Assembly: GCF_012027325.1 (NCBI RefSeq)
Contig: NZ_SNUG01000003.1
Coordinates: 186,001 to 250,000 of the forward strand
DNA length: 64,000 nt
Reading direction: 5' to 3'
DNA from: Thermococcus sp. M39
Lineage (GTDB): Archaea; Methanobacteriota_B; Thermococci; Thermococcales; Thermococcaceae
Shown: one piece after another, positions 6,017-60,174 of the stretch
How positions within the stretch are numbered: the first letter of the stretch is position 1
Layout: every line of letters starts with the position of its first letter
Position numbers and translations under genes: made by a program
The notes under the pieces: generated by a model
What the model saw: the letters and a program-made list of their open reading frames with translations, nothing else
The model's database searches: none
Told to the model about the DNA's origin: nothing

Positions 6017-6344
6017 GCGAGAGGGCTATAGCCCGCCTTCTGTATTAAGGGAGCATTCGACTAAGCGGCCAACCACGGGACTCACACCGGGAACTCATCG
6101 TCCCTCTTTCGGCCTTGCACCCCGCGGGACGGCCGTTTCACCGATCCCTCCGAGGTCGTCTGCGGGTTAGCTCGGGAGCTGTCACCAGCCCCCTTCGCCG
6201 TTTTCATTCCCATCCCTCGGAGGACGTGTCGTTTCTGCGCCGTTGCCCTCCCTCTCGGGAGGTGCCTTGCGGCACCGCGGCCCCGGTGCGGTGGGCGGAA
6301 CTTCCTCGGGCTCAAGGCCCGGCAACTCCCAGCCCTCTCGCCTA
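6016..6344 (-). ncRNA. rnpB: RNase P RNA (archaeal type A)
   Basis: A GC-rich island of about 329 bases in AT-rich DNA, read on the minus strand. The two ends form a long P1 helix: GGCGAGAGGGCT near 6343 pairs with AGCCCTCTCGCC near 6017. Conserved core elements are present: the GAGGAAGTTCC block near 6300, the ACAGAA sequence near 6040, and several strong GC stems between. RNase P cleaves the 5' leader from tRNA precursors. The length agrees with Thermococcales homologs. The 3' end touches the stop codon of the convergent DMT transporter gene. Exact ends may shift by a few bases. Confidence 0.95.
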
Positions 6345-50825: not shown

Positions 50826-53561
50826 TCAAGAGGAGAGCCTCTTCCTAAGCTCCTCCAAAGCTTCTCTTGCCTTTCTTACATCCTTTATCTTTCCTTGCGC
50901 TAAGTCCTTCTTTCCTCCACCGCCGCCACCAGCGATTGAAGTTATCACCCTTATAAGTTCGCCAGCTTTGAACTCAAGAGCATCGCCAACTGCAACGACC
51001 ACAGCGTTCGTGTCTTCGCTTATGAGTGCAACTATCCTATTGGACTTCTTCAGCTTGAGTGCTGCTTCTCTTAGATGGTCTAAGTCTCCCTTGACAACCT
51101 CTCCGATGAACTCAATTTCGCCGATCTTCTCGACTTTGCTCTCAAGCTCGTAAACTAGCAGCTTAGCTAATTCTTTCTTGAGCTTTTCAACTTCCTTCCT
51201 TGCTTGCTTCCACTCCTCGAAGAACTTCTCAGCTGTCTCTGGCAACTTTTCTGGTGGAACTCTGAAGACTTCACTTGTCTTCTTTATTATGTCCCTCTCC
51301 TTCTGCCACTCTTTTATCGCAGCTTCACCACATGCGAAGATAATTCTTTCAACTCCATCTTGAATCCTCTCAGTTCTAAGTATCTTTATTGGACCGACTA
51401 AGCCAGTACTCGGCAAGTGAGTTCCACCACATGCCTGAACGTCCCAGTCCTCAATCTTGAGAACTCTGATGACTCTTCCCGGCACAACTCCACCTTGATA
51501 AAGCCTAAAGCCGTACTTCTGCTCCGCCTCTGTTCTCGGCAACCACTCCCAAGTGACTTTTCTGTTCTCCATGACAACCTTATTAGCAAGCCTCTCTATT
51601 TCCTTCAGCTCCTCTTCACTAATGCGCTTGTAGTGGGAAATATCTAACCTCGCCCAATCTGTGCTCAGCTGTGAGCCAGCTTGCCAGACGTGCCTGCCAA
51701 GAACCCTCACCAAAGCTCCCATCAGAACGTGGGTTCCAGTATGGTGTCTCATGTGCTGAATTCTCCTATCCCAGTCGATTTTTCCGTGAACTGTCATTCC
51801 TTCTTTAAACTTCTCTGGCTCCTTAACTCTGTGGAGTATCACCTTTCCAACCTTCTGAACCTCTAGAACTTCAACACCGTTAAGCTCACCAGTGTCGTAC
51901 GGCTGTCCACCACCTTCTGGATAGAATGCTGTTTTATCAAGAACGACCCACTCATCAATGACCTTGAGAACTTTAGCGTCGAACTCCTTCATGAACGGGT
52001 CTTCATAGTAAAGCGTTCTCGTATCTGGCAAGTCTCTTACAAGCTCGAAATCAACGATTTGTTCCTCTTTTTCCTCTTTTGCCGTCTTTTCTGCTTCCTT
52101 TGCTACTAAGCTATAGAAGTTGTCGGGTATGTGAACCTTTATACCCTCTTTCTCTGCTATCTCCTTAACAATCTCTGGCGTTAAGCCGTGGCTTTCGTAG
52201 AACAGTATGAGCTTCTCTAGTGGAATTTCGTCTTTGCCTTCTTTCCTAAGCTTCTTAATTTCTCTTCTGACCAAATCGGAGCCTCTCTTAAGGGTTTCTT
52301 GATATCTCTTCTCTTCCACATTAATCATGTCCAAAATGACGTCTTCCATCCCCTCAAACTCTGGGAAAGTCTTGTGAAGAGCTTTTATGTGCATGGCAAC
52401 GATTTCGCTGAGCGGAATCTCCAAACCAAGCTCCCTCAAATGCCTAATGCTCTTCCTTATCAACAGACGAGCAAGGTAGCCAGCTTTAACGTTTGAAGGA
52501 ACAACTCCATCAGCCAGCATGAAAGTTAAGGCTTTTGTGTGATCGGCTATTGCATAGATAAGCTCGTAGGGTCTTATTAGTCTCTCAAGTTCCTCAACGC
52601 TTATCCCAACTCTGCTCGCAACTTCTCTTCTCAAAACTTTAAGGTCACCCATGTCCTCGATGTCAAACATTCCAGCCAGCCTTGAGTTTTCCATTAGAAT
52701 CCTGTCGTCAATCTTCTCAATGCCAGCCATTCTCTTGAGGGGCTCAATGACATAACCTAAGACAGCATCGTAAGCCGTTGGAGTGCCTTGACTCATCCAA
52801 ACTAACCTCTCAAGACCATAACCGGTATCAACGACCTTGGTATCCATTGGGATGTATCTGTCCCCTTTGATAATCACAACTTGGTCATCCGGAGTTCCGG
52901 GAGGTGCTAGCTTATACTGCATGAACACAAGCGTAGCAACTTCCAAACCTCTATAAAGGACTTCAAAAGCGGGTCCAGCGTTTCCTCCACCTGCCCATGG
53001 GTTCTCTTTGAAGGTTATGTCTTCAGGCTTCATCTTCAGATCCTTAGTGAAGAACTCGAAAGCTAATTCAACTGTCTCATCCATCCAGTATATCGGCTTG
53101 CCTGGATAGTTGAAGGCATGATGTGCCATCATTTCGAAGATTGTGAAGTGTCTCCCCGTTATTCCAACGTTGTCAATGTCTGTGAATCTTATTGAAGGCT
53201 GGGAAATTGTGAGCGGATTTGCTGGAGGATCAGCTTCTCCACTAATGACCCAAGGTTGGAAGTCCATAATGCTTGCCCCAACGAGGAGAACATCATCTCT
53301 CCATCTAGGCAGAACTGGATACCTCTTAACCCTTCCATGCCCATGTCTCTCAAAGAAGCTTAAGAATGCCTCTCTCATTTCATCAAGCGTGTACTTCTTT
53401 GGAATGCCCGGCTTTCCTATGAACTGGTACTCATCACACGGAGGGTCCCCACATGTCTCTCTGTCTGGATCGAGCGTCCAGAAAGGTTTTCCACAGACTT
53501 TACAGGTCTTCCTTATCCATCCTTCCTCTTTAAACATCCTCGTTGTCATATCCATTGACAT
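50826..53561 (-). CDS. alaS: alanyl-tRNA synthetase
   Basis: Class II synthetase, 911 residues, charging tRNAAla. It has an amino-terminal catalytic domain with zinc-like Cys pairs ([16 protein letters not shown]) typical of archaeal AlaRS, an editing domain with HHTGTH and CGGTH, and a carboxyl DHHA1 domain ending in [14 protein letters not shown]. The start is the ATG at 53559-53561 after GGGTGA; the GTG at 53570 is inside that site. A TTAATATAAC element near 53630 may be the TATA. Confidence 0.97.
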
Positions 53562-53705
53562 TTTAATCACCCTTCCAAAATTAACTAGTGAAAAGTACTT
53601 ACCTTAAAAACAACAGAAGAGTGAAGTTATATTAAGTTTACTGAAATTTAGGCAAAAACAAGAAATATGAAGAATTTGTCTAGTATAAGCTCCCATTAGA
53701 CTGAG

Positions 53706-53966
53706 CTAATCCTCTTCATTCTCATTGATTACAATGATTGGGAAGTTCATCTTTTTGAGCATCTCTATGAGTTGCTCATACGTTTTTCTTAAGCGTTCAA
53801 GCTTATATCGTAAATTTTGGTTCTCAATAGCTAAGCTCGTAGCTTCCTCCGTCTTGGCTCTAAGCTGAGCTTTAAGCTCAATTATCTCATCTTCAAGCTC
53901 AATAATCGAACGTTCTAACCTCTCAATTTCCTCATACAGATCTTTGCATATCTTTTCTTTGAGCAT
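53706..53966 (-). CDS. small coiled-coil protein
   Basis: An 86-residue protein that is one long amphipathic helix (about residues 5-72, heptads of Leu/Ile) followed by a short hydrophobic strand and an acidic end (ENEED). No family is recognised; it could be a dimeric adaptor or DNA/RNA-associated protein. The ATG at 53964-53966 follows GGTG; the in-frame TTG at 53975 is less likely. Its leader contains the box C/D RNA at 53976-54034. Confidence 0.68.
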   Translation of the reverse strand: MLKEKICKDLYEEIERLERSIIELEDEIIELKAQLRAKTEEATSLAIENQNLRYKLERLRKTYEQLIEMLKKMNFPIIVINENEED

Positions 53967-53975
53967 ATACAACAC

Positions 53976-54034
53976 CGGTCAGACCCGCGAAACCTCATCA
54001 CTGATTTCAGGGGGCTCCAGACTCATCATTCCTC
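53976..54034 (-). ncRNA. box C/D guide RNA 1
   Basis: Minus strand: C box ATGATGA (54023-54029), 12-base guide GTCTGGAGCCCC, D' box CTGA (54007-54010), five-base spacer, C' box GTGATGA (53995-54001), 12-base guide GGTTTCGCGGGT and D box CTGA (53979-53982). This order and spacing are the archaeal C/D sRNA consensus for ribose methylation with fibrillarin, Nop5 and L7Ae. Predicted targets are complementary to the guides and methylated opposite the fifth base before D or D'. It lies directly upstream of the coiled-coil gene on the same strand. Confidence 0.85.
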
Positions 54035-54509
54035 AATTTTTTGATTATGATTCTCATAACTAATAAGATTTTCCCTCAATTTTCTCCCAGAGGCCACATC
54101 TTTATTTTAAGCTGACTTTTTGAGCTTTAAACCTCTTTCTCAGCAAGAGGTTAAAAGGAAAAATGAAGGCTTTTTGGCTTCAACTTGATCAAGCTTTAGT
54201 TCATTAATAAACTATCACCAATGAGAAACTCATATGATTTGAAAAGGAGAGCTTACTCCCTTAATCCTGCCAGATTTTTAATGCACTTCTCACTGTTTAC
54301 TGTGTATATTATAGTTTCAAAAACATATCGTTGCCAAAATGTAGCATATATAACCTCAACATTACTTGAGAAAAACTTCAACAATTAGCCAAAATCCTTA
54401 AATATTTTGTCGATATTAAGATAAGTTTGTAAAGTACACCAATGCAGAAAACTCTACTTTATGGTACAGTGACGTTCAGAAAAAACCTAAATAGGTTGGA
54501 GGTGTCTAT
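54035..54509. other. gene-free region before the AGCS symporter
   Basis: No convincing gene. A hairpin is at 54130-54152 (AACCTCTT, seven-base loop, AAGAGGTT). A ten-base palindrome CTTGATCAAG is at 54184-54193. AT-rich TATA-like elements precede the symporter gene (TTAAATATT near 54396). GGAGGTG just before 54510 is its ribosome binding site. Confidence 0.4.
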
Positions 54510-58044: not shown

Positions 58045-58101
58045 CGGTCAGCTAGTCAGTCCTCTCATCACCGGTCAGCAACGGGTTTAATCATCATCCA
58101 A
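58045..58101 (-). ncRNA. box C/D guide RNA 2
   Basis: Minus strand: C box ATGATGA (58091-58097), guide TTAAACCCGTTG, D' CTGA (58075-58078), three-base spacer, C' GTGATGA (58065-58071), guide GAGGACTGACTAG and D CTGA (58048-58051). The C box overlaps the hisS stop codon TGA (58094-58096), so the RNA is part of, or processed from, the hisS transcript end. Targets are not identified. Confidence 0.85.
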
Positions 58102-60116: not shown

Positions 60117-60174
60117 ATGCGATGATGATACCGGCACTGGCTGAATCATGATGAGCGCTCGGTTGGCTGAGCAA
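60117..60174 (+). ncRNA. box C/D guide RNA 3
   Basis: Plus strand: C box ATGATGA (60122-60128), guide TACCGGCACTGG, D' CTGA (60141-60144), three-base spacer, C' ATGATGA (60148-60154), guide GCGCTCGGTTGG and D CTGA (60167-60170). TGC before the C box and GCA after the D box can pair as a terminal stem. It is antisense to the last 29 bases of the METTL5-like gene. No TATA box lies at the right distance, so processing or an unusual promoter is likely. Confidence 0.87.

Follow-up and report, generated by a model that had tools for sequence, protein, structure and literature searches.

An sR23 box C/D guide RNA in front of a coiled-coil gene in Thermococcus sp. M39, and its predicted target in the anticodon loop of tRNA-Trp

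The stretch between positions 53976 and 54034 raises the question of what a small guide RNA does when it lies immediately in front of a protein gene, and which RNA it would modify. An earlier note on this DNA had described a box C/D guide RNA with four boxes and two 12-base guides in the leader of a coiled-coil gene, and had named the anticodon arm of tRNA-Trp as a possible target. We followed this up in the window (the whole stretch of 64,000 nucleotides that was analysed), in the rest of the assembly and in related genomes.

The sR23 element and its occurrence in the family

The cmscan search of the window gave a match to the Rfam model RF01138 (sR23) on the minus strand, 53977-54031, with 60.8 bits and an E value of 2.7e-12. 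The gathering cut-off of the model is 45 bits, and the match spans it from end to end (1-54 of 54). This is far above chance level, and by its sequence the element is sR23, a known type of archaeal box C/D guide RNA. Read on the minus strand, which the earlier note had left unstated, the sequence and the Rfam alignment place the C box AUGAUGA at 54023-54029, followed by the D' guide GUCUGGAGCCCC (54011-54022), the D' box CUGA (54007-54010), the C' box GUGAUGA (53995-54001), the D guide GGUUUCGCGGGU (53983-53994) and the D box CUGA (53979-53982). A box C/D sRNA was taken to have its C/C' and D/D' boxes in order and guides of 10-12 nt; here all four boxes are canonical (RUGAUGA for C and C', CUGA for D and D') and in order, and each guide has 12 nt. 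The boxes and guides of the earlier note are confirmed by this and by the end-to-end Rfam match. The locus shares with the Rfam consensus its full length, the same boxes and an identical D' guide core, whereas the D guide departs from the consensus at several places. The fold of the region has a z of -1.5, which is uninformative either way, since a stable fold is not a defining feature of box C/D RNAs.

Other small RNAs were also seen in the window. An archaeal RNase P RNA lies on the minus strand at 6017-6341 (220.7 bits, Rfam), and a second box C/D sRNA, with boxes and guides visible, on the plus strand at 60118-60173 (RF00095, 51.8 bits). A probable third one is at 58045-58100 on the minus strand, where the RF00095 match has 38.3 bits and is under the cut-off of 45 of that model.

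The family search covered 94 genomes, the present 2.28-Mb assembly and 93 relatives. sR23 was found in 91 of them at E ≤0.01 and was strong in 88, in six of the six genera; the search model contains the same guide, and copies with another guide would escape these counts. Three of the six genomes without a strong match have weak matches only and three have none, and one of the six (G069) is nearly complete. It was possible to parse 70 copies, from 70 of the 88 genomes with a strong match, and the other 18 copies are represented by their coordinates only. The parsing pattern required TGGAGCC in the D' guide, a requirement that excluded no locus. The genomes share ancestry, and the conservation counts given here and below are not independent. 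When the same guide was looked for in a public genome collection, all 21 stretches with named records came from Thermococcaceae, Thermococcus or Thermococci MAGs.

The anticodon arm of tRNA-Trp as predicted target

No tRNA was found in the window, and sR23 therefore lies outside the tRNA-Trp intron, unlike sR50, the box C/D RNA that is encoded in the tRNA-Trp intron of Pyrococcus (Clouet d'Orval 2001) and that, according to a passage of PMC7994747, guides C34 and position 39. The tRNA-Trp gene itself is at C3:339965-340104, about 100 kb from sR23. It has an intron of 62 nt after position 37, the same length as predicted for the circular tRNA-Trp intron of T. kodakarensis in a passage of PMC9014305, and the spliced anticodon arm reads GCGGG-CUCCAGA-CCCGC. 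In the tRNA searches the gene was reported neither by ARAGORN nor by the Rfam tRNA model, presumably because of the intron. It was also missed by a pattern built on the intron C box TGATGA, and it was the near-match sites of the D' complement that revealed it. A search of the genome for the exact D' complement gave, at no mismatches, the sRNA itself as the only match, which appears to refute tRNA-Trp as the target. We rejected this refutation, because the missing match is explained by the intron after position 37 together with C28, which replaces a G at the box-side end. The precursor was found in all of the 30 genomes searched, and the anticodon arm is identical in all 30.

Positions 2-12 of the D' guide pair without interruption with positions 29-39 of the spliced tRNA-Trp (11 consecutive Watson-Crick pairs), and C32 falls at the N+5 position of the duplex. 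The unspliced precursor retains 10 pairs, since the intron happens to start with an A. The published criterion for a guide, as worded in a passage of PMC4644070, is at least nine consecutive Watson-Crick pairs covering the N+5 nucleotide, and the 11 pairs exceed it. The scan for target sites was made over tRNA-Trp, 44 other tRNAs and the 16S-tRNA-Ala-23S operon, and among these no site suited the D' guide better than the one in tRNA-Trp, which ranked first; only 1 of 400 shuffled D' guides reached 11 pairs. Across the 70 parsed copies the pairing at C32 is 11 bp in 55, 10 in 13 and 9 in one, and it fails in one, the arm sequence of the 30 genomes being assumed for the remaining copies. The single failure is in a low-completeness genome (G086), where the guide has one extra C. 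We also looked for covariation between guide and tRNA at C32, and none was available, the arm being invariant in the 30 tRNA-Trp genes. If C32 is the target, such a constant arm would lead us to expect a constant D' guide. Judged by this complementarity, sR23 very probably directs the methylation of C32 in the anticodon loop of tRNA-Trp. The earlier note had taken the D' target from the loop sequence CUCCAGA, with C32 as the predicted methyl site, and would have given the target up if the tRNAs and rRNAs held no match of at least 9-10 bases; the guide complements were checked in both, and the spliced and the unspliced tRNA-Trp each hold such a match.

sR50 is present in the tRNA-Trp intron of the present genome too, and its guides form, in the precursor, 12 pairs at C34, of which 3 are GU, and 8 at C39. 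The two RNAs share the tRNA, the anticodon arm and the box C/D mechanism, but sR23 is a separate gene that would address C32, and perhaps G42, whereas sR50 addresses C34 and 39. Furthermore, the D' guide of sR23 pairs almost equally with the spliced and the unspliced tRNA. As the intron guides cover C34 and C39, sR23 adds to the intron guide rather than repeating it, and by its predicted sites it is a complement without duplication. The earlier note had said that such guides are better known from the tRNA-Trp intron than as a separate RNA. This needs two corrections, the intron guide addressing C34 and 39 and not C32, and stand-alone C/D RNAs that target tRNA anticodon positions have already been described (in a passage of PMC7994747).

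C32, C34 and C39 of tRNA-Trp are predicted as C/D targets in P. furiosus by snoRNAdb, as cited by Wolff et al. (2020, PMC7668247), and from the guide it seems that the C32 prediction corresponds to sR23. G42 is absent from the predicted sites in that passage. The predicted C32 was not detected by Wolff et al. in the P. furiosus tRNAs analysed, mature tRNA-Trp being among those obtained; only Cm34, Am38 and m2,2Gm26 of the predicted positions were detected, in some tRNAs, and their alignment legend says that some regions could not be analysed. As it stands in this part of the paper, the non-detection is evidence against methylation of C32. Our literature searches returned no passage with a direct measurement of Cm32 in Thermococcus, and sR23 did not appear by name among the Pyrococcus papers listed.

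Neighbouring genes and probable promoter

The placement given in the earlier note is right, and a small coiled-coil-like ORF of 89 aa (53975-53706, minus strand) lies directly past box D. The mechanical start of this ORF is the GTG at 53975, and the ATG at 53966 is the likelier start of the gene. A possible identity as YabA was not taken (32.1 bits against 30 in Pfam, and far below the NCBIfam cut-offs), because coiled coils match widely. Next downstream, on the same strand, is an ORF at 50826-53570, which we take from its translation, and from the features we associate with an alanyl-tRNA synthetase, to be alaS.

The matched part of the coiled-coil gene starts at most 25 nt from the sR23 match in 76 of the 88 genomes, and in most genomes about 5 nt separate the end of the D box from the start codon. 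The gene was found 133-3482 nt away on the same contig and strand in 5 of the 88 genomes, at another place in 3, and was not found in 4. Within stored flanks of about 1.5 kb, 54 of 70 loci have the N-terminus of AlaRS downstream of sR23. In one genome (G088, locus L146) an intact sR23 is followed at once by a break in the coiled-coil frame, with alaS still present at 326 nt, which implies that the sRNA is independent of the protein. In another (G077, locus L136) sR23 leads straight into codons from inside alaS, either through a rearrangement or as an assembly chimera.

An A+T-rich stretch, TTATTAGTTATG, is found where a TATA box would lie (54055-54066, minus strand), about 25-30 nt upstream of the 5' end of the sRNA, and across the 70 copies the columns from -38 to -27 relative to the C box have an A+T content of 60-83%. 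This suggests that the sRNA has a promoter of its own, from which transcription would continue into the coiled-coil gene. A scan for Shine-Dalgarno sequences in 66 copies was mixed, with 12 copies having one, 48 lacking it and 6 in which the start could not be placed, and it was given no weight.

Other readings and the probable working of sR23

The D guide is less clear than the D' guide. Its positions 1-9 form nine pairs, eight Watson-Crick and one GU, with positions 38-46 of tRNA-Trp (ACCCGCGGA), which puts G42 at N+5. In the present genome this duplex is the best of the 722 sites with a duplex that reaches guide position 3 or nearer to the box. For the commonest version of the guide in the family G42 ranks seventh, with 11 sites tied or better, and 72 of 400 shuffled D guides reached its best 9-bp run, so the match to G42 proves little alone. 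At least seven pairs to G42 are kept in 66 of the 70 copies, and other registers on the arm have at most five. Four genomes (G049, G055, G060 and G065) have at most five pairs at G42 and have kept the D' guide; in two of them, at L169 (G049) and L168 (G060), where the D guide has lost its pairing to tRNA-Trp, the coiled-coil frame also extends backwards without a stop, 19 nt into the sRNA. We give about even odds that the D guide addresses G42, judged by pairing. The suggestion in the earlier note that the D target, beginning ACCCGC, continues the same arm is correct for the sequence; as a target it is plausible, but the match by itself does not beat chance and a site in 16S rRNA competes. That site, AGGCGCGAAACC, may be the real target of the D guide, which would make sR23 a mixed guide for C32 by D' and for one G of 16S by D. 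It offers nine consecutive Watson-Crick pairs including N+5 in the present genome, as many as the published rule asks for, and the pairing is nine in 36 and eight in 20 of the 70 copies; a 16S target would also account for the conserved GUUU in the D guide. However, the site is mismatched at guide positions 2 and 3, which leaves a single pair between the methyl site and the box, and in the genus g3, where the D guide has diverged, all eight copies have at most six pairs to 16S while the pairing to tRNA-Trp stays at 7-9. A 16S target thus seems doubtful to us.

The remaining alternatives concern the purpose of the RNA as a whole. Archaeal TrmJ, a SPOUT enzyme, makes Cm32 in Sulfolobus (passages of PMC5372735 and PMC6313347). 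Its product is the same as that predicted for sR23, but it is a protein enzyme that modifies C32 of tRNAs with no guide RNA (PMC5372735). A TrmJ-family protein is present in this genome and, with a patchy distribution, in 65 of the 94 genomes of the family. C32 could therefore be methylated without sR23, and it is conceivable that the guide duplicates TrmJ and is redundant or a relic. We find this very unlikely, as sR23 is kept both with and without a TrmJ match, and unconstrained guides would have drifted. The nine genomes of genus g3 have no TrmJ match and eight of them a strong sR23, which implies that sR23 does not depend on TrmJ. It is also conceivable that sR23 is mainly a cis-acting kink-turn in the leader, bound by L7Ae and repressing the coiled-coil/alaS operon, with the guides being secondary. 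In Sulfolobus, kink-turns in message leaders allow repression by L7Ae (passage of PMC5539422), and 11 C/D sRNAs of T. kodakarensis lie in 5' UTRs and 12 in 5' coding ends (passage of PMC4247193), the former being, like sR23, guides within a protein gene's leader that are presumed to be freed by processing. The few nucleotides between the D box and the start codon, and the adjacency in most of the family, fit with this. But the RNA and its D' guide are intact also in a genome with a broken gene (G088), in those where the gene has moved (G007, G009, G011) and in the five above where it is separated from the RNA, and a pure kink-turn would need no conserved 11-nt guide, which makes a mainly cis-acting role hardly probable. 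That assembly on sR23 regulates the coiled-coil gene is nevertheless a reasonable idea. The two functions could be combined, with sR23 methylating C32 and G42 and with RNP assembly in the nascent leader either shutting off the coiled-coil/alaS message or, by cleavage, making it leaderless. We consider this combination unlikely; if true, it would link the supply of guide RNPs to a tRNA synthetase operon.

The best explanation overall is that sR23 guides C32 through its D' guide and probably G42 through its D guide, with its own promoter, read-through and processing, and we give this a probability of about 0.83. What we observe is the RNA gene, the N+5 complementarity, the conservation and the gene order; the transcription, the processing, the RNP assembly and the two methyl groups we infer as follows. 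sR23 probably has its own promoter and would be the 5' part of a longer transcript, which reads on into the coiled-coil gene and then alaS; processing would release the sRNA from it. Archaeal box C/D sRNAs are typically expressed as small RNAs, often circular as well. By the known mechanism, L7Ae would then bind the kink-turns and be joined by Nop5 and fibrillarin; of this set fibrillarin and Nop5 were searched for, and the genes for both are present in the genome. The D' guide would pair with tRNA-Trp 29-39 and fibrillarin would 2'-O-methylate the ribose at N+5, C32, next to the C34 and 39 sites that are guided by the tRNA-Trp intron itself. The D guide would probably pair with 38-46 and direct a second methyl to G42.

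The element is of a known kind and was correctly read, and as such it is ordinary and well supported. The additions are modest, a possible second site at G42 and a conserved position ahead of the coiled-coil gene, and these are the less expected parts. sR23 would complete the predicted guided ribose methylations round the anticodon of tRNA-Trp in Thermococcaceae, with C34 and 39 served by the intron and C32, perhaps also G42, by a separate RNA. The tight spacing between sR23 and the start codon in most of the family raises the question of how a guide RNA and an mRNA are accommodated in one transcript, and the genomes with sR23 and without a TrmJ match allow a clean test of whether an RNA guide takes the place of a protein enzyme at position 32.
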